DNA of 64,000 nt from Miltoncostaea marina (GTDB lineage: Bacteria > Actinomycetota > Thermoleophilia > Miltoncostaeales > Miltoncostaeaceae), in assembly GCF_018141525.1 (NCBI RefSeq), contig NZ_CP064655.1:1736001-1800000 (forward strand), in the 5' to 3' direction. Both the position numbers and the translations under genes were made by a program. Shown here piece after piece: positions 1,883 through 55,548 of this stretch. The notes below the pieces were generated by a model that searched no databases, had not been told where the DNA came from, and was given only the letters and a program-made list of their open reading frames with translations. How positions within the stretch are numbered: position 1 is the first letter of the stretch; every line of letters begins with the position of its first letter.

Positions 1883-3534
1883 CCGCCCAGCTGCGCGTGC
1901 TCGCGGGCGGGCGCGACCCCCGGCCGGACACGGGCCCGCTCGGCGGCGGCGCCCACGAACTCGCGGAAGAGGGGCTGCGGGCGGGTCGGGCGGCTCTTGA
2001 ACTCGGGGTGGAACTGCGAGGCGCAGAACCACGGGTGGTCGGGCAGCTCGACGAGCTCGACCAGGCGCCCGTTGGGCGAGCGGCCGCTCATCACGAGGCC
2101 GGCGCGCTCAATCTCGTCGCGCATGGATGGGTTGACCTCGTAGCGGTGGCGGTGGCGCTCGTAGATGACCGCCTCGTCGCCGTAGGCCGCGCGCGCCCGG
2201 GTGCCCGGCTGCAGGTGCACCGGGTCGGCGCCCAGGCGCATGGTGCCGCCGCGCTCCTCGATGGCGCGCTGCTCCGGCAGCAGGTCGATGACCGGGTAGG
2301 GCGTCTCGGGGTCGAACTCGCTCGAGTTGGCGCCGTCCATGCCGCAGACGTGACGGGCGTACTCGATGACCGCCACCTGCATGCCGAGGCAGATGCCGAG
2401 GTACGGCACCCGCTCCTCGCGGGCGTGGCGGACGGCCGCGATCTTGCCCTCGATGCCGCGGCCGCCGAAGCCGCCCGGCACCAGGATGCCGTCGGCCCCC
2501 TGCAGGTGGTCGCGCAGGTGCGGGTCCTCGGCGTCGACCCAGTCGATCTCGACCTCGACGCCGTGGTGGATGGCCGCGTGCTTGAGCGCCTCGGCGACCG
2601 ACAGGTACGCGTCGTGCAGCTGGACGTACTTGCCGACCAGCGCGATGCGCACGCGGCCCTCGCAGGCGTGGATGCGCTCGACGATGGCGCGCCAGTCGGT
2701 GAGGTCCGGCGCGGGGGCGGTCACGCCGAGGCGCGCGCACACCACCCGGGCGAAGCCCTCGGCCTCGAGGTTGAGCGGCACCTCGTAGATGTCGGGCGCG
2801 TCGACCGCCGAGATCACCGCGTTGCTCGCGATGCCGCCGTAGAGGGCGATCTTCTGGCGGATGTCGTCGGTCAGCGGCCGGTCGGAGCGCAGCACGAGCA
2901 CGTCGGGCTCGATACCGATGCGGCGCAGCTCGTTGACCGAGTGCTGGGTGGTCTTGCTCTTGAGCTCGCCCGAGGCCTCGAGGTACGGCACGAGGGTCAC
3001 GTGCACGAAGCAGACGTGCTCGCGGCCCACGTCGTTGCGGAACTGGCGGATGGCCTCGAGGAACGGCAGCGACTCGATGTCGCCCACCGTGCCGCCGATC
3101 TCGATGATCACCACCTCGGCGCCGGAGCTGGCCGCCGCCTGGCGGATGCGCGCCTTGATCTCGTCCGTCACGTGCGGGATGACCTGGATGGTCGCCCCGA
3201 GGAAGTCGCCCCGGCGCTCCTTCTTGATTACCGCGTCGTAGACCGCGCCGGTCGTCACGTTCGAGATGCGGCTGAGGCTCTCGTCGGTGAAGCGCTCGTA
3301 GTGGCCGAGGTCCAGGTCCGTCTCGGCCCCGTCCTCGGTCACGAACACCTCGCCGTGCTGGAAGGGGCTCATGGTCCCCGGGTCCACGTTGAGGTAGGGG
3401 TCGCACTTCTGCAGCGACACGCTGATCCCGCGCGCCTTCAGCAGCGTCCCCAGCGAGGCCGCCGAGATGCCCTTCCCGAGGCCGGAGACGACACCCCCCG
3501 TCACGAAGACGTACTTGACCGGTGCCTCGCCCAC
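1879..3534 (-). CDS. pyrG: CTP synthase
   Basis: A 551-residue enzyme that aminates UTP to CTP using glutamine and ATP, the last step of pyrimidine nucleotide synthesis. The N-terminal synthetase domain has the diagnostic [13 protein letters not shown] (about residues 11-23) and [12 protein letters not shown]. The C-terminal glutamine amidotransferase has its nucleophile in GICLGMQ and the His/Glu pair in FHPEF. The first plausible start is the GTG reading [11 protein letters not shown], since the Val of VKYVFV is GTC and cannot initiate. It is preceded by GGGAGG at about 4 bases and by a TATCCT -10 candidate at 3564-3569. It heads the pyrG-peptidase-Nudix unit. Confidence 0.97.
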
Positions 3535-3563
3535 GTGACCTCCCTCGCCCGACGACCACGGTG

Positions 3564-3569
3564 AGGATA
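3564..3569 (-). promoter_or_regulatory. -10 element candidate for pyrG
   Basis: On the minus strand the hexamer reads TATCCT, 29 bases upstream of the GTG. With a transcript start about 7 bases downstream this gives a leader of roughly 22 bases, enough to include the visible GGGAGG ribosome-binding site. No clear -35 element was recognised. Confidence 0.4.
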
Positions 3570-3673
3570 GCGGGAGGGTCGGCGGGTGGCCGCCCGTCGG
3601 GCCTGTCACCGGGGGTCGTGGGGGACGCTCCGTGCGGCCGCGGCGGGTGGCGGGACGCCGGCGCGGGGGGATC

Positions 3674-3808
3674 GCGCGATTGGCGCAGGCGGGTCGCGCC
3701 AATTGGCGCGACCCGCATGGTGAGCCCCGTCGATGGCGATCCCGCGCCATTCCATAGGCGTGCGCCCGTCGTGCGCCATTTGGCGCGGACCGCGTGCGCC
3801 AATCGCGC
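3674..3808. repeat. Nested palindromic element built on GCGCCAAT
   Basis: Two 13-base arms, GCGCGATTGGCGC at 3674-3686 and its exact complement GCGCCAATCGCGC at 3796-3808, enclose about 110 bases. Inside lies a perfect 28-bp palindrome at 3689-3716 centred on CCAATTGG, and a smaller one (GCGCCA-TT-TGGCGC) at 3773-3786. The gap between pyrG and the methyltransferase remnant (3535-3942) holds nothing else recognisable. Part of the sequence (TTGGCGCGACCCGC and GTGCGCCAATCG) recurs in the hairpin at 31486-31536. Function unknown; a mobile palindromic repeat or a protein-binding site are both possible. Confidence 0.7.
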
Positions 3809-3942
3809 AGACAGCGGGCGGGGCGGCGGCGGCCCGCTGACAGGGCGTCGGGGCCGGCCCCCGACGGGGATGCCCCCCGGCGGGCCGGGGCGGCGATGCT
3901 GGACGCCCCGGCCCGCGAGGAGGCGGCGACGGCCCGCCGGCG

Positions 3943-4651
3943 TTCGACCGGGAGGAGGCCCGGCGGACGGAGGCGGTCCACCTGATCGAGGACGCCGTGC
4001 GGCGGCGCGGGATCGTGCGCCGGGCGCTGGCGGCCTCGGCGGGCGAGCGGGTGCTCGACGTCGGCTGCGGCCCCCGGTTCGTCCGCGGCGGGCCGGCCGG
4101 CGGGGTGGGGCCGTCGGGGGGCGTCGTCGGCGTCGACCGCAGCGCGGCGATGCTCGAGCTCGCCCGCCGGCGGTGCGCGGGCCTCGCGGACGTGACCCTG
4201 CCGGTCGGCGACGCCTCGTGCGACGCGGCCCTCTGCGTGCAGGTGCTCGAGTACGCGCCCGACGTGCCGGCCGCGCCGGCCGAGATGGGACATCGACCGG
4301 GCGACGCGCTCCGTGCACGCGGAGGACGAGGCGCGCAGCGACCGTGTGCCGGAGGCCTGGGAGGAGCACCTCGAGCACCGCTCCCTCCCCCGCACGCTCG
4401 CGCCCCTCATGCGGGCCGCCGGCGTCGCCGACGAGCGCATGGAGGGTCACGCCTTCGCCACCGCCGAGCTCGACGAGGCCCGCCACTCCGGCGCGGCGCT
4501 CGTCCCCTTCATCGGGGCGTTCGTCGCCGGTCGCGGCCGCGTGGCGCCGGAGGAGGTGGCGGCGTGGGAGGCGGAGCAGCGCGCGCTGGGCGCGCGGGGC
4601 GCGTGCTCCTTCGCCTGCACCCAGTGCTGCGTCACCGGGCGGGCGGCGTGA
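3943..4651 (+). pseudogene. Decayed class I SAM-dependent methyltransferase
   Basis: The first part reads in one frame from [20 protein letters not shown] through the SAM-binding [10 protein letters not shown], the acidic [17 protein letters not shown] and [16 protein letters not shown]. At about 4285 the meaningful frame changes and continues as [18 protein letters not shown] to the end. Roughly twelve residues that family members have at the switch (the HRALRPGG strand) are missing, and a second gap follows DVTLPVGD. No standard start codon exists in the first frame after the stop at 3838. These are deletions rather than a single indel, so a real pseudogene is more likely than a sequencing error. 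Intact relatives are UbiE-like methyltransferases of unknown substrate. Confidence 0.7.
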
Positions 4652-8007: not shown

Positions 8008-8059
8008 GCCGCGCCCTCGGCGGCCGCCTGCCCCGTGCCCGGCCGACAGGCCGGGGGCC

Positions 8060-8359
8060 GACGTGCAGATCCCCGGCCAGGGACGATCTGCCGCGTGGCC
8101 CGCGGGCACGGCGTGGGGCCCCCGCGTGACAGGGATCGCCCGGCGCCGGCGCGGCCGCCCAGGCGGGGCGCCGGTGTGCAGATCGCCCCGGCCAGGGACC
8201 ATCTGTCGCGTGACCGCCGGCGAGCGCGTGGGTCCCCTCGTGACAGGGGTTCTTCCCGGCGCCCACCCCGCCGCAGGCGGTGCGCCGGTGTGCAAATCGC
8301 CGCGGCCGGCGGCGATCTGCCGCGTGACCCGGCCCGAAAGAGGCCGGGTCCCCGCCTGA
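8060..8359. repeat. Three-unit tandem array of a compound-hairpin repeat
   Basis: Three related units start their central hairpin at 8066 (CAGATC), 8179 (CAGATC) and 8293 (CAAATC), giving a period of 113-114 bases. The best unit (8258-8359) contains three successive hairpins: GGCGC/GCGCC, CAAATCGCC/GGCGATCTG and GACCCGGCC/GGCCGGGTC. A close fourth copy sits at 55197-55298. The array fills the 366-base gap between tlyA and the dxs stop, where no gene is visible. Paired changes in the central stem (CAGATC with GATCTG, CAAATC with GATTTG) suggest the structure is maintained. Confidence 0.8.
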
Positions 8360-8361
8360 GA

Positions 8362-29200: not shown

Positions 29201-29998
29201 TCAGGCCGGCCTGCGCCCCACGCCGAAGAGCTTCACGAAGGAGTAGCGGAACCCCCTCGGGCCGGCGGCGGCGGCCACGGCGGCGGCCACCCGCTCGCCG
29301 TGGGCGGCCGCCTCGGCCGGCTCGAGGTCCGCCGACAGGTGCGACGCGACGGCGGCGATGCGTGCCAGGTACGCGTCGGGCGGCTGGTGGCGCACCCGCC
29401 GCTCGTCCCAGGCGTCGACGACCTCGAGCCCGGCGTCCTCCATGTAGCCCGCGAGCTCCTCGCTGTCGCGGTGGATGTCGTCGAACACCGAGATCCACGC
29501 CGGCGGCACCGGCGGCCGCACGCCCTCCAGCACGCGCCGGAACTCCTCGTCGGTGCCGCGCCCGGAGGCCAGGATCGCCAGCACGCCGCCCGGCTGCAGG
29601 CGGCGCGCCATCGAGGCGACCGCGGCCGGCTTGTCGGGGAACCAGTGGAAGGCCATGCCGCTCACCACGGCGTCGAAGGCGCCCTCGGGGACGTCCATGT
29701 CGTGCACCCCGCCCTGCACGAGCGTCGCCTCCACGGGCAGCCCGGCGAGCTTGTCGCGGAAGACGTCCAGCATGCCGCCGGAGGGGTCCACCCCGGTCAC
29801 GCGGCGGGTGCCGAAGCGCTCCACCATGCGCTCGGTGACGAATCCGGTGCCGCAGCCGACGTCCAGCACGTCGTCGTAGGTCCCGTCCGGCAGGGCGGCC
29901 ACGAGGCGCGCGGCGCCGTCGCGGTTGTGGCGCAGCAGCTCGTCGTAGTCCGCCGCCGCGAGGTCGAAGCCCTCCCCCACCGTCCGCCCGTCACCCAT
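29201..29998 (-). CDS. Class I SAM-dependent methyltransferase
   Basis: A 265-residue cytoplasmic methyltransferase. Motif I is DDVLDVGCGTGFVTERM (about residues 44-60), motif II VTGVDPSGGML, and the post-motif segment AFDAVVSGMAFHWFPDK. It resembles methyltransferase type 11/UbiE-like enzymes; the substrate is unknown. The ATG has a clear GGGGGAGG site, and the gene is read divergently from RNase HI with a shared -10 region (TACGGTA at 30026-30032). Confidence 0.85.
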   Translation of the reverse strand: MGDGRTVGEGFDLAAADYDELLRHNRDGAARLVAALPDGTYDDVLDVGCGTGFVTERMVERFGTRRVTGVDPSGGMLDVFRDKLAGLPVEATLVQGGVHDMDVPEGAFDAVVSGMAFHWFPDKPAAVASMARRLQPGGVLAILASGRGTDEEFRRVLEGVRPPVPPAWISVFDDIHRDSEELAGYMEDAGLEVVDAWDERRVRHQPPDAYLARIAAVASHLSADLEPAEAAAHGERVAAAVAAAAGPRGFRYSFVKLFGVGRRPA

Positions 29999-30025
29999 GC
30001 CGCCTCCCCCGCCGTCGTGGTCCTC

Positions 30026-30032
30026 TACGGTA
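30026..30032. promoter_or_regulatory. Shared divergent -10 region for rnhA and the methyltransferase
   Basis: TACGGT (30026-30031) on the plus strand lies nine bases before the rnhA ATG. The overlapping minus-strand hexamer TACCGT (30032-30027) would start the methyltransferase mRNA with a leader of about 20 bases that includes its ribosome-binding site. Confidence 0.45.
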
Positions 30033-30040
30033 TCGCCCGG

Positions 30041-30550
30041 ATGCCCGACACCTTCACCCTCGTCACCGACGGCGCCTGCTCCGGCAACGGCACCGACGCC
30101 TCCCGCGGCGGCTGGGCCGCGATCCTCACCGCGCCCGACGGCACCGAGGAGGTGCTGACGGGCGGCGAGTACCCCACCACGAACAACCGGATGGAGCTGA
30201 CGGCCGCGCTGGAGGGCCTGCGCGCGGCGCCCGAGGGCTCCGAGGTGGAGCTCGTCACCGACTCGAGCTACGTCGCCAACGCCCTGCTGAAGGGGTGGCT
30301 CGCCGGCTGGCAGCGCAAGGGCTGGCGCACGGCGAGCAGGCAGCCCGTCGCCAACCGGGACCTGTGGGAGCGGATGATCGAGGAGATCGCCCGCCACCGG
30401 CGGGTGCGGCCGGTGCTCGTGCGCGGGCACGCCGGCCACTCGGCCAACGAGCGGGCCGACCGCCTCGCCGTGGAGGCGGCGAAGGACGCCCAGCCGCGCG
30501 GCGAGGCCCCCGTCGTCCCCGGGGAGGGTCAGCTCGGCCTCGATCTCTAG
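30041..30550 (+). CDS. rnhA: Ribonuclease HI
   Basis: A 169-residue nuclease that degrades RNA in RNA-DNA hybrids (R-loops, replication primers). The catalytic acidic set is complete: Asp in VTDGACSGNG, Glu in NNRMELTAALEGL, Asp in VTDSSYV and Asp in ANERADRLA, with the His of VRGHAGHSAN. The ATG lies nine bases after TACGGT, with no ribosome-binding site. The C-terminal tail (about 145-169) is low-complexity. The next gene begins within a few bases of its stop. Confidence 0.95.
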   Translation: MPDTFTLVTDGACSGNGTDASRGGWAAILTAPDGTEEVLTGGEYPTTNNRMELTAALEGLRAAPEGSEVELVTDSSYVANALLKGWLAGWQRKGWRTASRQPVANRDLWERMIEEIARHRRVRPVLVRGHAGHSANERADRLAVEAAKDAQPRGEAPVVPGEGQLGLDL

Positions 30551-30554
30551 GACC

Positions 30555-31472
30555 CTGGTCGTCGGACCGGGCGCCATCGGCGGCTTCGTCGCCGCGCGCC
30601 TGGCCGACGCGGGCTGGCCGGTCGCGGTGCTCGCCCGCGGCGCCACCCTCGAGGCGCTCCGCGCGGGCCCCATGCGGCTGACCGACGACGGCCGCGAGCG
30701 CGCCGTCCCGCTGCGCGCGGTCGCCGACGTCCGCAAGGCCGGCGAGGTCGACCTGGCGCTCGTCTGCGTGAAGAGCTTCGACACCGCCGCGGCGGCGCGC
30801 GGCCTGCGCGGCGCGCTCGCCCCCGGCGGCGTCGTGCTGTCGCTGCAGAACGGCGTCGACAACCCGGCCGTCATCGCGCGCGAGCTGCCCGGGGCGGCCG
30901 TCGGCGGCGTGGCGGTCTACCTGGGCTGCCAGCGGCTCGCGCCCGACCACGTCATCCGCCGGCCGAGCCGGAACCCCTCGACCGGCCGCCTGCGCGACCT
31001 GCTCGCGGGCGGCGGCGCCGGCGCCCCCGGCCGGGCCCTCGCCGCGGTGGCCGACGCCATCGGCGTGCCCTCGCGGGTCGACGACGACCCGGCGGGCGCC
31101 CTCTGGACCAAGCTCGTCGCCAACGTCGCGCTCAACACCGTCACGGCCCTCGGGCGGGCCCGCGTCGGCCGCGTGCTCGCCGACCCCCGCGCCGTGGGCC
31201 TGATGCTGGCCCTCGGCGAGGAGGTCGTGGCCGTCGCGCGCGCCGCCGGCGTGCCCGTCGCGTCCGACGCCGCCCGGGCCTACGTCGCCGACGCGCGCCG
31301 CCGGCTGCCCGCCGACGGCGGCTCGTCGACGCTCTTCGACCTCGAGGCCGGCCGCCGCCTCGAGCGCGACGCCCTCGTCGGCGCCGTCGTCCGGGAGGGC
31401 GAGCGCCTGGGGGTCCCCGTCCCGGCCAGCCGCGCCTGCGACGCCCTGCTCCGGCTCCTCGACCCCGGCTGA
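30555..31472 (+). CDS. Ketopantoate reductase family protein, apparent non-standard start
   Basis: About 305 residues of the ApbA/PanE family, which reduces 2-dehydropantoate with NADPH in pantothenate synthesis. The Rossmann motif VVGPGAIGGFVAARLADAG is at the N terminus, with LVCVKSFDTAAAARGL, LSLQNGVDN, and the C-terminal segment KLVANVALNTVTALGR containing the catalytic-type Lys. The first ATG/GTG in frame (GTG 30627) would delete the NADPH motif. The only candidates before it are CTG (used here), just past the rnhA stop, or ATC at 30543. Translational coupling to rnhA is likely. Many family members have other substrates. Confidence 0.78.
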   Translation: MVVGPGAIGGFVAARLADAGWPVAVLARGATLEALRAGPMRLTDDGRERAVPLRAVADVRKAGEVDLALVCVKSFDTAAAARGLRGALAPGGVVLSLQNGVDNPAVIARELPGAAVGGVAVYLGCQRLAPDHVIRRPSRNPSTGRLRDLLAGGGAGAPGRALAAVADAIGVPSRVDDDPAGALWTKLVANVALNTVTALGRARVGRVLADPRAVGLMLALGEEVVAVARAAGVPVASDAARAYVADARRRLPADGGSSTLFDLEAGRRLERDALVGAVVREGERLGVPVPASRACDALLRLLDPG

Positions 31473-31485
31473 TCCCCGCCTCGCG

Positions 31486-31536
31486 GGGGTCGACGCCGAT
31501 TGGCGCGACCCGCGTGCGCCAATCGGCGTCGACCCC
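31486..31536. terminator. 21-bp perfect inverted repeat between convergent genes
   Basis: Arms at 31486-31506 and 31516-31536 are exact complements (starting GGGGTCGACGCCGATTGGCGC minus its last base) around the loop GACCCGCGT. Placed between the reductase stop (31472) and the protease stop (31549), it can act as a bidirectional terminator. The loop and inner stem resemble the palindromic element at 3674-3808, so it may also be a dispersed repeat. Confidence 0.7.
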
Positions 31537-31548
31537 TCCGGCGCCCCC

Positions 31549-32547
31549 TCAGGCGGGGCCGGCGACCGGGCGGACGGCGAGCCGGACGTCGAGGTCGAGC
31601 CGCCTCCCGTCGCGGAGGACGGTGACCCGGACCGCCTCGCCCGGCCGGCGGTCGGCGAGGGCGTCGGCGATGGCCGCGCTCGAGTCGACGGGGCGCCCGC
31701 CGACGGCGACCACGACGTCGCCGGGGCGCAGCACGCCGCGGGCGGGGCCGTCCCGGAGGACGTCGGCCAGGCGGACGCCGCCCTCGCCCCCCTGCCCCAC
31801 GATCCCGAGGTAGGGCAGCCGTGCGGCGCCGGTGGCGACGATGCGCTCGGCGGTGCGGGCGACCACGTCGGCGGGGACGGCGAAGCCGATGCCCTCGTTG
31901 CGCCCGCCCTCCGTCGCGATCTGGGTCGCGATGCCGACCACCCGGCCGTCCATGTCCAGCAGCGGGCCGCCGGAGTTGCCGGGGTTGAGGGCCGCGTCGG
32001 TCTGGATGACGCCGGTGATGGCGAAGCCGTTGGGCGAGTCGATCTGGCGGCGCAGGCCCGAGACGACGCCGGTCGACAGCGAGCCCTGCAGGCCGAAGGG
32101 GGCGCCGATGGCGATGACGGGGTCGCCGACCCGCAGCGCCGCGGCCGGGGCGAGGGGCAGCGCGGGGACGCCGGCCTCGACGCCGTCCAGGCGCAGGACG
32201 GCCACGTCGACCGACGGCTCGACGCCGCGCACGCGGGCGCCCACGCGGCGGTCGCCGATGGCCACCTCGACCCGCTCGGCATCGCCGACGACGTGGGCGT
32301 TGGTCACCAGGTGGCGGGCGTCGAGCACCACCGCCGAGCCGGTGCGCCCCCCGGCGTCCACGGCGGCGACCGAGGGGGCGGCGGCCGCGTAGAGCGCGCT
32401 GACGTCGGCGCCGGAGGGCCATGTCGCGGCGCCGGCGGCTCCGGCGGCGCCGGGCAGCCCGGTGACGGCCAGGAGGAGCCCCGTCACAAGGCCCCCCACG
32501 CTCGCCGCCACCAGGATCCTCAGCGCCTCGCCGCCGCGCAGCCGCAT
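31549..32547 (-). CDS. HtrA/DegP-like membrane-anchored serine protease with PDZ domain
   Basis: A 332-residue trypsin-fold protease. An N-terminal membrane span (about 10-32) anchors it outside the cytoplasm. The triad is intact: His in LVTNAHVVG, Asp in SVDVAVLRL, Ser in LNPGNSGGPLLD. A C-terminal PDZ domain (about 235-325) contains the GDVVVAVGGRPVDSSA ligand region. HtrA proteases degrade or refold misfolded envelope proteins. The ATG is supported by GGAGGG just upstream. It is divergent from the M50 protease gene. Confidence 0.92.
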   Translation of the reverse strand: MRLRGGEALRILVAASVGGLVTGLLLAVTGLPGAAGAAGAATWPSGADVSALYAAAAPSVAAVDAGGRTGSAVVLDARHLVTNAHVVGDAERVEVAIGDRRVGARVRGVEPSVDVAVLRLDGVEAGVPALPLAPAAALRVGDPVIAIGAPFGLQGSLSTGVVSGLRRQIDSPNGFAITGVIQTDAALNPGNSGGPLLDMDGRVVGIATQIATEGGRNEGIGFAVPADVVARTAERIVATGAARLPYLGIVGQGGEGGVRLADVLRDGPARGVLRPGDVVVAVGGRPVDSSAAIADALADRRPGEAVRVTVLRDGRRLDLDVRLAVRPVAGPA

Positions 32548-40837: not shown

Positions 40838-41813
40838 TGCGCGCGATGCGGCTCTCGACGTCGGCCGCGCCCAGCTGATCGTTGCGGGCCAGGGCGTCCT
40901 TGCGCAGCACCTGCAGGCCCGCGAGCGCGCCCGGCACGTCGAGCCCCAGGCCCGCGGAGCGCTCCCACGCGTCGCCGGCGCGGACCGTCTCGCCGCGGTC
41001 GGTCAGGACGAGGGCGAGGGCGCGCCAGGCGTGGGCGTCCTCCTCGTCCTCCTCGATCACCCGCAGGGCCGTCTGCTCGGCGCCGGCCAGGTCGCCGCGC
41101 GCGCGCAGGGTCGCCGCCAGCGCGACCAGGCCCGGCGCGTTCTCGCGCACGGTCGGCAGCATGCGCGCGCTCTCGCGGAGCGCCGTCTCGCTGCCCGCCA
41201 GATCGCCCACGTCGCGGCGGGCGGCGCCCAGCGTGGTGAGCGAGCCGGCGGTCACGCGGAGGGCGTGCGCGCGCTCGGCCAGGGCGAGCGCGCGGATGGT
41301 CGCCCCCTCGGCGCGGGCCCGGCGGGCCGCCGCGAGCGCCTCGCGCGGGTCGGACACGGCCGCCGCCGCCCGCCGCTCGGCCGCGAGCTCGGCCTGGGCG
41401 TCGTCGCCGGCGAGCAGCATCGCGGGCCCGGGGGCCATCCGCGCGTCGTCCTCGCCGTAGTGCTCGATGCGCTCGCGGGCCGCGCGCAGCCGCTCCTCGC
41501 GCTCCAGCACGGCGCGCTGGGCGCTCGTGGTCGCCCGGGCCGGAGACGTCGCTGCCCCGAGCAGGGCGTCGTACTCGCGCCGCACGTCAGGGCGCAGCAG
41601 CGCCTTCTCGCCCTGGTCGCAGTAGGCCTTCTCGATCGCGCGCGCCTTCTGGGACATCGGCGTCCCCGCCAGCTGCCGCCGCTTGGCCTCCGCGGCGGCG
41701 CGGATGGCGTCCGGGCCCGCGTCGCGCGGGATGCCGAACCAGGCGTAGAGGTCGCGCTGGGCGAGCTCCCGCAGGAACCGGCCCCTGCGCGCGCGTGCGT
41801 CGTCGTCGGCCAC
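40824..41813 (-). CDS. J-domain-like protein with TPR-type repeats
   Basis: A 329-residue soluble protein. The N terminus (RDLYAWFGIPRDAGPDAI to RPDVRREYDALLG, about residues 20-87) has the spacing of a DnaJ J domain but lacks the HPD tripeptide that activates DnaK. A charged linker follows, then helical repeats (about 165-320) with TPR-like spacing, e.g. LTTLGAARRDVGDLAGSETA and HAWRALALVLTDRGETVRAG. It could bind partners without stimulating Hsp70. The GTG start is eight bases after TACAGT. Its end overlaps the end of the convergent YgjP gene. Confidence 0.75.
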   Translation of the reverse strand: MADDDARARRGRFLRELAQRDLYAWFGIPRDAGPDAIRAAAEAKRRQLAGTPMSQKARAIEKAYCDQGEKALLRPDVRREYDALLGAATSPARATTSAQRAVLEREERLRAARERIEHYGEDDARMAPGPAMLLAGDDAQAELAAERRAAAAVSDPREALAAARRARAEGATIRALALAERAHALRVTAGSLTTLGAARRDVGDLAGSETALRESARMLPTVRENAPGLVALAATLRARGDLAGAEQTALRVIEEDEEDAHAWRALALVLTDRGETVRAGDAWERSAGLGLDVPGALAGLQVLRKDALARNDQLGAADVESRIARIRRG

Positions 41814-41821
41814 GAGGCGGC

Positions 41822-41827
41822 ACTGTA
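41822..41827 (-). promoter_or_regulatory. Leaderless-type -10 element for the J-domain-like gene
   Basis: Minus-strand TACAGT, eight bases before the GTG. The rest of the 41828-42094 spacer shows no recognisable feature. Confidence 0.5.
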
Positions 41828-42094
41828 GTCGACCGCGGCCCGTAGCAGGTGCACGCCGTACACGCCGTGACGTTCCGCCCTTGCGCGCCGTCCGGCGGGT
41901 CGGCTTTCATGCCCGACTTCGCCTGCCGGGCCCGTCCGGCGGCGAGCACAGGCGGACGGCACGGAGGCCGTCGCGGCGGGACCTGCCCATGGGCGGGACG
42001 ACCCCGCCGCCCGCGACCGCCCCGGGCGTGCCCGAACCGGCCCGGGGCGTCCCGCGCAGGACCGCGCGGGGATGTCCCCTGCGAAAGGCACCAT

Positions 42095-42937
42095 GTGAAG
42101 GCGCTCGTCTCGCTGGCCGTCGCGTTGACGGCCATCCCCGCCGGCGTGGCGGTGGCCCAGTCCGCCGCGCCCGCCGAGGGCGCGGCACCGCTGCCCCCCG
42201 GCGCCCTCCTCGGCACGGGCGCGCCCGTCGCCCACGAGCCCGACCACGCCGCACGCCCGCGTCGCGCGGCTCGCCGGCCAGGCCCGGCGCCACTCCCGCC
42301 GCCTCGGCCTGGTCCCGCCGCGGCGCCCCGCCCGCCGACGCGCACCTCGTCGCGCACGAGCGCCGCCTCGAGCGCGTCGTGGGCTCCGCGGGCGCGCCGA
42401 GCTCGACGCCGCCCTCGACGAGCGGCGCGCCCCCGGCCGCGCGCGCGGTCCCGCGCCCATGCCCGCGCCGGCGGCCTGCCGGCGCTGGTGGCCCGCGAGC
42501 ACCGCCGCGTGGCGCGCCGCGCGGTCCGCCTGGGCATCCAGCCCCCGCGCCCGCTGCGCCTCGCGCGCACCGAGGCGGGCCGGCGCGCGCAGCTCGCGCG
42601 CCTCCGCACGCTGAGCCGCTGGCTGGCCGCCCGCACGGAGCGGGTGCGGCCGCAGGAGCGGCCCCTGTCCGAGCGCCTGCGCCACTACGACGCGCTGGCC
42701 TGCATCGCCGGGCACGAGTCCGGCGGGCGCTGGGACATCTCGACCGGCAACGGCTACTACGGCGGCCTGCAGATGGACGTGGCGTTCCAGCGCACCTACG
42801 CGCCGGACCTGCTGCGGCGCAAGGGCACCGCGGACAACTGGACGATGGAGGAGCAGATGCGGACGGCGCAGCGGGCGATCCGCACCCGCGGGTTCACGCC
42901 GTGGCCGAACACCGCGCGCATGTGCGGGCTGCTCTGA
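42095..42937 (+). CDS. Secreted Rpf/transglycosylase-like protein, middle region doubtful
   Basis: Open for 280 residues. A signal peptide (VKALVSLAVALTAIPAG, cut after VAVAQ) follows a fair ribosome-binding site (AAAGG). The C-terminal 80 residues are convincing: LACIAGHESGGRWDISTGNG with the catalytic-type Glu and YYGGLQMDVAFQRTY, as in resuscitation-promoting factors that cleave peptidoglycan. Residues about 50-150 in this frame are Arg/Pro/Ala-rich and look wrong; sensible helices such as HLVAHERRLERVVGSAG and AELDAALDERR appear in other frames, pointing to compensating indels. The gene may encode a scrambled linker or be decaying. Confidence 0.65.
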   Translation: MKALVSLAVALTAIPAGVAVAQSAAPAEGAAPLPPGALLGTGAPVAHEPDHAARPRRAARRPGPAPLPPPRPGPAAAPRPPTRTSSRTSAASSASWAPRARRARRRPRRAARPRPRARSRAHARAGGLPALVAREHRRVARRAVRLGIQPPRPLRLARTEAGRRAQLARLRTLSRWLAARTERVRPQERPLSERLRHYDALACIAGHESGGRWDISTGNGYYGGLQMDVAFQRTYAPDLLRRKGTADNWTMEEQMRTAQRAIRTRGFTPWPNTARMCGLL

Positions 42938-43277: not shown

Positions 43278-44288
43278 ATGGAGGACGACCCACGCCGCCG
43301 CCCGCGCGCGTTCGCGGCGCCGGGCGTGCTCGGAGGCCTCGCCGCCGCCGCGGCCGCCACCGACGAGGCGCGCGCCCAGGCCGCGCTCGCGCCGCCCGCG
43401 CCGGGCGTCATCGCCGACGGGGTCTCGATCGGCGGCGTCCCCGTCGCCGGCCTCGACCGTCGCGCCGCCCGCGCCCGGGTGCTGACGGCGCTCGTCGCGG
43501 CCCGGCGACGTCCGATCGAGTTCCGCATCGGCGGGCGGACGGTGCGGGTCAACCCGGCGATCGCCGGCTACGTGGCACGGGTCACGACGCGCTGACGGGC
43601 GCGCTCAACGTCGGCCGCAGCCGGCCACCGCGGGTCGTCGACGGCCCGCTGCGCCAGCGGGTGGACCGGCGCAAGTTGCGCAGGATCCTGCGCTGACACG
43701 AGGACCGGCTGGCGCCCGCCCCGGTCGACGCGCGGCCGGGGGACGTGGACGACGAGCCGAAGGTCGTGAAGCCGGTCCTGGGCGTCGGGCTGCGGATGCC
43801 GCAGGCGCTGCTCGCCGCCGAGCGGGCGATCGTCGAGCGGGCCGCCGAGGCGCACGACCTCCCCACCCGCCGCCTCCGGCCCGAGCGCACCGGCGTCGGG
43901 TTCTCGATGGTGATCGACCGCGAGGCGTTCGAGCTGCGCCTCCACCGCGGGGAGGAGCTGCTGCGCACCTTCGACGTCGGCGTCGGCACGGCCTCGCATC
44001 CGACCCCGGCCGGGCGCTTCAGGATCGCCAACGTGGAACGGCACCCGACCTGGCGCCCGCCGGACTCCCGGTGGGCGGAGGGGATCGGCCCGGTCCCGCC
44101 GGGACCCGACAACCCGCTCGGCACGCGCCGGATCGGCATCAGCGCGCCAGGCGATCGCCATCCACGGCACGCCGCGGCCCGACACCGTCGGCCGCCGGTC
44201 CTCCCACGGCTGCGTCCGGATGCGGATCCGGCGCGTCGAGTGGCTCTCCAACGTGGTGCGGCTCGGGACGGCGGTGAAGATCGTCTGA
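43278..44288 (+). pseudogene. Decayed L,D-transpeptidase with YoaR-like N-terminal domain
   Basis: The ATG has a good GGGAGGACGCGC site and the protein begins with a Tat/Sec-like signal and a peptidoglycan-binding YoaR-like domain (VIADGVSIGGVPVAGLDRRA). The frame breaks near 43588 and continues one frame over (DALTGALNVGRSRPPRVVDG), meets a TGA at 43694-43696, resumes through the YkuD core (FSMVIDREAFELRLHRGEEL, HPTPAGRFRIANVERHPTW) and breaks again near 44150. Only after that shift do IAIHGTP and the catalytic SHGCVRM appear. Three separate lesions make loss of function likely. Intact enzymes form 3-3 peptidoglycan cross-links. Confidence 0.8.
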
Positions 44289-44295
44289 CGCGCCG

Positions 44296-45207
44296 TCAGC
44301 GGCGCACGACGAGGCCGGCGAGCGCCCGCCGGACCCGCTCCGACGCCGGCCGCCCGTACGGGTCCGGCTCCGGCGGGCGCCGCCGGTCGGCCACCTCCGG
44401 CCAGCAGGCGGCCAGGGAGGCCGCCACGAGCAGCACGATCGCCGCGAGGAACGCGAACACGAGGAACGCGGCCACCGCCCCGAGCGATCCGTAGACCGCG
44501 TTGTAGCGCCCGAAGTTGCCGACGTAGAGCCCGAAGCCCGTGGCGAGCGCGTAGAGGGCGACCGCGCCGGCGAGGGCGCCCGGCAGCGCCCCGCGCCACG
44601 GCACCGGGCGCGCGGGCACGAACCGCAGGAGCACGACGAAGGTGGCCGCGGCGAACGCGACGGTGGCGCCCGCCCCGAGCAGGCCGCCGGCCACGCCCGA
44701 CAGGCCGAGCGGCCCCAGCACCTCCTCGTCGGCGACCCGCACAACGATCGTGGCCGCCGCCGCGCAGAGGAAGAGCAGGCCGGTGACGAGCACCATCAGG
44801 ATGTCGACCGCCTTCCCGCGCAGGAACGGGCGGGGCCGCGCGTCGCCGGTCACCTCGGTCAGGCCCGAGCGGATCGCGCCCATCAGCCCGCCCGCCGTCC
44901 AGAGCAGGCCGACGAGGCCGGCGATGCCGACGGCGCCCGCGCTCTCGCCGGCCTCGAGCAGCACGTCGCGCAGGTCCGCGCTGCCGTCGCCGCTGAGCGG
45001 CAGCGGCTCCACGATCCGGTCGACCACCTCGTCGCGGACGCCCTCCACCGGCAGCAGGGCGTTCGCGCCGGCGACGATCACGATGACCAGCGGGAACAGC
45101 GAGAGCAGCGCGTAGTAGGCGATGGCCGCGGCGAGGCGGGTGCCGCCGGAGCGCACGAACCCCTCCAGCGAGCCCCGGGCCAGCAGCCGGATGCGCCAGA
45201 GCGACAT
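44296..45207 (-). CDS. YihY/BrkB family membrane protein
   Basis: A 303-residue inner-membrane protein with six predicted spans. It shows the family hallmarks LAAAIAYYALLSLFPLVIVIV near residue 25, the Gly-rich GLVGLLWTAGGLMGAIRSGL, and FGLYVGNFGRYNAVYGSLGAVAAFLVF near the C-terminal third, where YNxxYGSLG is the most conserved element. The biochemical role is unsettled; the old RNase BN label was withdrawn. It converges on the L,D-transpeptidase remnant. Confidence 0.88.
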   Translation of the reverse strand: MSLWRIRLLARGSLEGFVRSGGTRLAAAIAYYALLSLFPLVIVIVAGANALLPVEGVRDEVVDRIVEPLPLSGDGSADLRDVLLEAGESAGAVGIAGLVGLLWTAGGLMGAIRSGLTEVTGDARPRPFLRGKAVDILMVLVTGLLFLCAAAATIVVRVADEEVLGPLGLSGVAGGLLGAGATVAFAAATFVVLLRFVPARPVPWRGALPGALAGAVALYALATGFGLYVGNFGRYNAVYGSLGAVAAFLVFAFLAAIVLLVAASLAACWPEVADRRRPPEPDPYGRPASERVRRALAGLVVRR

Positions 45208-54334: not shown

Positions 54335-54808
54335 GTGCAGAGGGCGCAGAACGAGGAGATCGGCCTCGTCGTGGTCGATCACGGCTCGCGCAGGGCCGAG
54401 AGCAACGAGATGCTCGAGCGGATGGCCGTCATGGTCGCGGAGGCCGTCCCCTACGGCATCGTCGAGCCGGCCCACATGGAGCTCGCCGAGCCCTCCATCC
54501 AGACCGCGTTCGACACGTGCGTGGAGCGCGGCGCGACGACGGTGGTGGTCGCGCCCTACTTCCTGCTGCCGGGCAAGCACTGGACCGAGGACATCCCGGC
54601 GCTGGTCGCGGCGGCCGCCGCCCGCCACCCGGGCGTCAGCTACCTCGTCGCCGCGCCCTTCGGCCTGCACCCGCTGATGGCCGAGGTGGTCGGCGCCCGC
54701 GCCGCCCACTGCATCGCCCACGCGCGGGGCGAGGCCGCCGAGTGCGAGGTCTGCGCCGGCCGGGGCGGCTGTCGCATGCAGGTCGCCCCCGCCACCGCCG
54801 CGGCGTAA
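54335..54808 (+). CDS. CbiX/SirB-type chelatase, small
   Basis: A 157-residue class II chelatase-fold protein. The catalytic His is in GLVVVDHGSRRAESN near residue 16; the middle has HMELAEPSIQTAFDTCVERG and VVVAPYFLLPGKHWTEDIP with a second His. Such proteins insert Co or Fe into sirohydrochlorin for cobalamin or siroheme. The C terminus carries a Cys cluster, ECEVCAGRGGCRMQ, not needed for the fold and possibly a metal or iron-sulphur site. No other tetrapyrrole gene is nearby. Confidence 0.85.
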   Translation: MQRAQNEEIGLVVVDHGSRRAESNEMLERMAVMVAEAVPYGIVEPAHMELAEPSIQTAFDTCVERGATTVVVAPYFLLPGKHWTEDIPALVAAAAARHPGVSYLVAAPFGLHPLMAEVVGARAAHCIAHARGEAAECEVCAGRGGCRMQVAPATAAA

Positions 54809-55196
54809 GGCCCCGCGCGACGAGCCCGGCCGGGCGCGTCGCGCTTCGAAGTGGTCGCGATCCGAAGCTCCGCCCAGACCACCCGGCTTCGCAGGGCGGC
54901 CTGGGCTGCGTCGGACCGAGGAACGCCGGCTGGCGCGCCGGCCGAATCGGCTCCGGCCTGGCGGCCGGGGCGCGCCGATCCGGCAGATTGCCCCTCACCG
55001 CGCGGCTCCGTCGGCGCTGACGCGCCGCCGGGGCGCGCCGCGCGGCGAACTGGTCGCACTGCGTCCCGGACGACCTGATCGAGCGACGACGTGGTCGTAG
55101 ACACGACCGCCGAAGGCGGGAGCGGGACAGAACCGGCCACGAGGGCGCCGGGCACACCACACGCGCACCACGGACGCTCACGTCAGTGGGGTTTCC
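54809..55196. other. Gene-free spacer
   Basis: No convincing coding sequence on either strand. The stretch is slightly less GC-biased than its surroundings and contains several short inverted repeats (for example GGCTGGCGCGCCGGCC near 54930) but no repeat matched elsewhere in the window. It may be a degraded region. Confidence 0.45.
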
Positions 55197-55298
55197 GGCG
55201 CCCGCCCCGCCGAAGGCGGTGCGCCGGTGTGCAAATCGCCCCGGCCAGGGGCGATTTGCCGCGTGACCCGGCCCGAAAGAGGCCGGGTCCCCGCGTGA
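55197..55298. repeat. Fourth copy of the compound-hairpin repeat
   Basis: About 100 bases nearly identical to 8258-8359, with the same internal spacing (central hairpin 35 bases in, at 55232). The central stem CAAATCGCC / GGCGATTTG is perfect here, and the last hairpin GACCCGGCC-cgaaaga-GGCCGGGTC is identical. Located 47 kb from the three-unit array. Confidence 0.8.
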
Positions 55299-55342
55299 GG
55301 GGCACGGCGGTCGTCACCCGCCCAGCGCGAGCCGGCCCGAAG

Positions 55343-55537
55343 GGCCGGGTCCCGCCCGCGCAGAGGATCGGCCCCAGCCGACCCGGTCCGTCGACGACCT
55401 CTCTTGGGCCGGGTCCCGCCCGCGCAGTGGATCGGCCCCAGCCGACCCGGTCCCTCGACGACCTCGTGAAGCGGGGGCCGGGTCCCGCCCGCGCAGAGGA
55501 TCGGCCCCAGCCGACCCCGTCCGTCGACCACCCCGTC
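55343..55537. repeat. Three tandem direct repeats of 64-69 bp
   Basis: Units begin at 55343, 55407 and 55476 with GGCCGGGTCCCGCCCGCGCA and end in TCGACGACCTC or TCGACCACC. Each holds an imperfect inverted pair (CCGGGTC and GACCCGG). They follow the compound-hairpin repeat directly and end just before the phosphatase gene stop. They are too few, long and unspaced to be CRISPR. Confidence 0.8.
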
Positions 55538-55548
55538 CCCGGACGGCG

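Follow-up and report, generated by a model that had tools for sequence, protein, structure and literature searches.

A dispersed, genus-restricted family of intergenic repeats with a three-hairpin core in Miltoncostaea marina

The tandem array between dxs and tlyA of Miltoncostaea marina contains the core of a repeat family, whose members are probably lineage-specific, non-coding, and non-autonomous palindromic interspersed repeats that were inserted between genes and multiplied within the species. We analyzed a window of 64,000 nucleotides (C1:1736001-1800000) of the genome, which consists of a single contig of 3,370,274 b. A covariance model (R1), built from eight cores of this genome with a hand-set structure, found 26 cores in the genome at E ≤ 0.01, under strict filters by which weak copies may be lost. 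These were 20 cores in long elements, unit 3 of the array, four compact copies, and one diverged inverted neighbor at 1020034.

The gap between dxs and tlyA measures 366 b, of which 340 b are taken up by the stretch with the array. Tandem Repeats Finder placed the array at window positions 8038-8331 (period 114, 2.6 copies, score 335), and three units with a period of ∼113 b cover positions 8030-8360. By BLAST, a unit at 55190-55305 was matched by window positions 8037-8129 (76%), 8140-8243 (79%), and 8253-8360 (93%), which bore out the original prediction of a three-unit array with a nearly identical further unit at 55197-55298. The features of the array are as follows.

8022-8361, no strand assigned: 340-b stretch holding the array, between dxs and tlyA; missing in two congeners
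8030-8137, + strand: array unit 1, decayed core (BLAST 76%); stem B CAGATC/GATCTG still pairs
8138-8250, + strand: array unit 2, decayed core (BLAST 79%); covariance-model match at 8146-8234, E 0.007
8256-8350, + strand: array unit 3, intact core; covariance-model match of 90.9 bits, fold z −4.1
8256-8288, 8292-8320, and 8326-8350, + strand: hairpins A, B, and C of unit 3

Since unit 3 folded better than shuffled sequences, and units 1 (z = −1.0) and 2 (z = +0.2) did no better than these, the array comprises one live and two decayed units. The three hairpins with fixed spacing that had been predicted for all copies were present in unit 3 and in the core at 55195-55289. Within the window, the central stem B, expected to change on both sides together, did so between unit 1 and the 55195 copy (CAAATC/GATTTG), but carried one A·C mismatch in unit 3 (CAAATC/GATCTG) and was broken in unit 2.

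The copy at 55197-55298, described before as a nearly identical unit, does exist, but turned out to be part of a ∼680-b element that had been missed. Long elements of this type measure ∼700 b and are modular, with the fixed order head hairpin, M1, M2, core, and a tail of about 1 to 6 M3 units of 64 to 70 b each. The window copy is composed as follows.

54868-55547, + strand: long modular element, one of 20 copies; boundaries approximate
54873-54907, + strand: head hairpin CCCAGnCCnCCCGG..GGGCGGCCTGGG, the left end common to long elements
54901-55050, + strand: module M1, nested GC-rich hairpins
55098-55176, + strand: module M2, conserved block ahead of the core; mostly 93 to 98% mean pairwise identity, 82% at 55118-55137
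55195-55289, + strand: core; 103 bits (covariance model R1), fold z −8.6 as RNA and −9.6 as DNA
55195-55227, 55231-55259, and 55265-55289, + strand: hairpins A, B, and C of this core
55342-55537, + strand: module M3, 64-b tandem units, 3 copies here and 1 to 6 elsewhere; Tandem Repeats Finder period 64, score 300

Most of the core was 93 to 98% identical between copies (hairpin C, 89%), compared to 73 to 83% in several neighboring segments. The M1-M2 sequence was confined to this genome, where M1 also occurs alone as a tandem pair without a core at C1:322528-322928 (L094:3529-3929) and there takes up a 431-b gap flanked by convergent genes. Long terminal inverted repeats were absent from the window copy, which was the own-genome copy tested.

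According to our own codon-score gene calls, by which 88% of the window is coding and the median intergenic gap is 37 b, all copies are intergenic. The gene pairs flanking the long copies were convergent in 8 cases, co-directional in 9, and divergent in 3; the long copy of the window lies between the convergent cbiX and a gene of the endonuclease/exonuclease/phosphatase family. A role as terminator was rejected because the neighboring genes take every orientation, divergent pairs among them. Of the four compact single cores (L023 to L026), one is located downstream of clpP, one between a cupin gene and a VitK2_biosynth gene, and two upstream of a gene (gatC and an AIR-synthase (purM-like) gene, respectively); their stems are wholly different yet near-perfect. 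Copies are distributed around the entire chromosome. Of the 20 long copies, six (L077, L080, L083, L086, L087, and L089) fall within 80 kb (C1:2711000-2791000; P = 0.002 versus random placement), which is what local spread would give. No replichore strand bias was observed for either the long copies (7 of 20) or the cores (12 of 26), with dnaA at C1:22.

The window also contains a second palindromic repeat. Its hairpins, with ATTGGCGC, occur several times in the gap at 3534-4313, and a long near-perfect hairpin at 31487-31545 (within 31480-31550) is related to them in sequence. Called genes are also separated by gaps of unusual length (646 to 700 b) at 43595-44296, 41813-42488, and 29980-30627. 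The first of these resembles a stretch that was called coding elsewhere (L085), so that some long gaps may be genes missed by the caller.

In the eight own-genome cores, 98.2% of the alignment cells were paired, and 17 of 34 pairs had changed in both partners, whereas no pair had changed in a single partner. Stem B comprises 12 bp and stem C 9 bp plus a bulged tip. When cores from the congeners G002 and G003 were included (25 distinct rows), 95.5% of the cells were paired in an alignment that was fitted to the structure and hence leans toward pairing; controls reached 39 to 45% (slid) and 73% (shuffled). Double changes were present in 26 of the 34 pairs (163 cells), and 2 of 34 varied on one side only. 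Since entire stem sequences are exchanged with their pairing preserved, the predicted covariation holds genome-wide; G002 cores, for instance, retain the layout although the sequences of their outer stem A (TCAGGC/GCCTGA) and of stem C (CTGATCTCCC/GGGAGATCAG) differ completely. Both further copies and covariation, on which the original prediction had staked itself, were thus found. Together, these data support that the fold of the core is selected for or otherwise maintained.

The correction of quasi-palindromes is an established source of mutations, and the paired changes could have arisen neutrally, by template-switch correction of inverted repeats during replication and without selection on the fold. 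The near absence of one-sided states, the many double changes, and the strict Watson-Crick pairing would all be expected from such correction, which concerns the covariation rather than the dispersal of the repeats and is therefore compatible with their being mobile. It leaves unexplained, however, the constant loop bases, the bulge in hairpin C, and the fixed order and spacing of the three hairpins. We regard neutral upkeep as a rather unlikely explanation; template-switch correction may nevertheless add to the covariation.

Model R1 found 7 cores in G002 and 2 in G003, all diverged from those of M. marina, but none, under the same strict filters, in the congener G001 (3 contigs, 100% complete) or in 77 other genomes of the class. 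Among the genomes searched, the repeat family is restricted to the genus. Genes dxs and tlyA are adjacent, with short gaps, in many relatives, including more distant ones. In G001 and G002, their aligned parts are separated by 11 and 18 b, respectively, compared to 340 further bases in M. marina. These extra bases are exactly the array, so that the two congeners present a clean empty site. This comparison showed neither a target-site duplication nor a sharp terminus, the termini being blurred and the congeners only ∼75 to 77% identical beside the site. As judged from the comparison between species, the array was probably inserted between dxs and tlyA. The cbiX site is less clear, as the congeners differ there by gene rearrangement too. 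A putative counterpart of the endonuclease-family gene in G001, assigned by size and place, adjoins the x53884 gene at a distance of 37 b, with neither cbiX nor the element between them. In M. marina, cbiX (window 54335-54808) lies between the endonuclease-family gene and x53884; in G001 it is ∼4 kb away, which indicates a rearrangement at the site of the element.

Most copies in G002 and G003 are situated near contig ends, and their full extent is hence uncertain. One G002 copy (L102) is flanked by 72-b inverted repeats (87.5%), and another (L100) has inverted repeats of about 105 b (90%) that extend from the palindrome GTGGCGCCAC inward; the right arm of the G002 inverted repeat takes in hairpin C. 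The form of these copies is MITE-like. In some G002 cores (L100:2010-2090), the place of hairpin B is taken by an A-tract/T-tract hairpin (CAAAAGGGCCCC..GGGGCCCTTTTG) with the appearance of an intrinsic terminator. On contig C236 of G002 (L041:1380-1720), a truncated core is joined to unrelated sequence with GTCAAGATGCAAACGGGTCACA, possibly the end of another mobile element.

Dispersed, intergenic, lineage-specific copies, an empty site, and inverted ends in some congener copies agree with the palindromic mobile element of REP or MITE type that had been proposed from the array. The loops of the core have G as their first and A as their last base in nearly all rows and are usually closed by a C-G pair; a single bulged base (A or T) invariably follows the tip of hairpin C. 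This polarity implies that one strand is the folded strand. C-GNA-G and C-GNNA-G loops form very stable DNA mini-hairpins, and the ends of IS200/IS605 elements as well as REPs are recognized in single-stranded form, as hairpins that contain a bulge or mismatch. On the most likely route, which is in part conjectural, one particular strand of the M. marina core would extrude in the form of DNA hairpins; an enzyme supplied in trans, a recombinase or transposase other than a Y1/RAYT enzyme encoded in this genome, would then recognize the hairpins or the element ends and move the element, and tandem units would grow and shrink by slippage or recombination. The Y1-type (RAYT) transposase suggested originally was absent: Y1_Tnp (PF01797) had no match in the four genus genomes (M. 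marina and three congeners), while control profiles matched in 5 to 8 of 14 genomes. Y1/RAYT was therefore rejected as mobilizer, and a search for a parent transposon, which covered the Y1 family only, found none.

Several observations argue against mobility. No transposase was identified in the search for the Y1 family, and neither a target-site duplication nor, in the own-genome copy tested, long terminal inverted repeats were found; the replichore strand bias that lagging-strand single-strand transposition might give is lacking; and compact copies L023 to L026 look maintained rather than decayed, although a pure parasite would not have to be maintained. A more specific version of the mobile-element reading, which we consider improbable, posits a single-strand hairpin element moved by an enzyme outside the Y1/HUH group that reads the shape of the hairpins and not their sequence. 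The three G-to-A loops and the conserved bulge would then constitute a strand-specific recognition code, and the stems would be free to change.

The core might instead be a structured RNA, as the original prediction had also allowed, with the transcribed triple hairpin having a cis-acting role (3′ UTR stability, attenuation) or representing a multicopy small RNA family. The strong covariation and very stable RNA fold would suit such a function, and so would the location of the array and the four compact copies 14 to 90 b from a stop codon and the GNRA-type loops (GAAA, GCAA, and GCGA) that are common in hairpin C. Other loops (GGCA, GGTA, and GATA), however, fit GNNA but not GNRA. Selection on an RNA transcribed from the top strand should favor G·T over A·C, but the 18 complete distinct rows contained 595 Watson-Crick (97% strict Watson-Crick), 3 G·T, 8 A·C, and 6 other cells, and all rows together 9 G·T versus 16 A·C. 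Although these are small numbers from related rows, G·T is not in excess, and RNA selection is thus unsupported. Moreover, copies lie beside genes in all orientations, divergent pairs included, and are missing from the complete congener G001. Rfam covariance models gave no match in the window at gathering score and none at the core at E ≤ 1; the sole hit at that threshold, to a miRNA family, was at chance level and lay outside the core, so that no known RNA family was identified. Altogether, the data lean toward folding of the DNA itself and not of an RNA, and an RNA function appears quite improbable.

Alternatively, a nucleoid or regulatory protein could bind the palindromes, and the copies would be kept as protein-binding or chromosome-organizing sites, in line with the high identity of the core relative to neighboring segments and with the spread of copies all round the chromosome; since wholesale replacement of stems between copies and species leaves no constant site for a sequence-reading protein, and since six copies are clustered in 80 kb and none is present in G001, this is very doubtful. 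A phage or plasmid origin was rejected, as the core had no match in phage or plasmid records and two stem patterns had no exact match in viral contigs.

Miltoncostaea marina and its congeners thus provide a genus-restricted REP/BOX/MITE-like family with a clean empty site for the deep-branching actinobacterial class Thermoleophilia (probably Miltoncostaeales). As these genomes lack a Y1 transposase, mobile repeats of this kind would be a useful case for the spread of repeats without RAYTs. They also illustrate that striking stem covariation does not prove an RNA, as it here accompanies DNA-level repeats without an excess of G·U.

BOX elements have the architecture boxA-boxB(n)-boxC and occur in over a hundred copies. 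With their ordered modules, one of which (M3) is present in variable tandem number, the long elements resemble them as structured, modular intergenic repeats that are restricted to close relatives, by analogy only; they differ in that the multiplied unit is the tail, in the presence of a triple-hairpin core, and in having 20 long copies. In Streptococcus pneumoniae, BOX elements are intergenic, have extensive secondary structure, are limited to close relatives, and have been read as parasitic (PMC3049150). REPs are 20 to 40 b long, have a GTAG or CGTC foot, and usually exceed 100 copies (PMC2817692, PMC3733652). Like REPs and BIMEs, the repeats described here are extragenic palindromes, single or clustered, and polar, with the defining loop and bulge confined to one strand. 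Unlike these, they have a core of about 96 b with three hairpins and no constant tag, number 26 copies, and coexist with no Y1 transposase in the four genus genomes. The aligned cores showed no unpaired GTAG foot, the genome no cognate RAYT (Y1_Tnp) gene, and the cores did not fit the CGTC type of REP either (unpaired CGTC foot, 8- to 9-bp stem, 4- to 5-b loop). With CGTC-tagged REPs, described in a paper that never uses the word Actinobacteria (PMC3733652), they share the palindromic form without a known dedicated transposase, but CGTC precedes hairpin C only in some compact copies (L023 to L025) and not in long elements or G002. MITEs are likewise short, non-coding, and intergenic, and the G002 copies with 72- to 105-b inverted repeats come close to them, whereas no target-site duplication was seen at the blurred dxs-tlyA termini, the own-genome copy tested has no long inverted ends, and the search of the Y1 family found no parent transposon. 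The family hence fails the tests for REPs and is BOX-like only by analogy. Its kind is already known from REP/BIME, BOX, and MITE elements (PMC2817692, PMC3733652, PMC3049150); the family itself is new.
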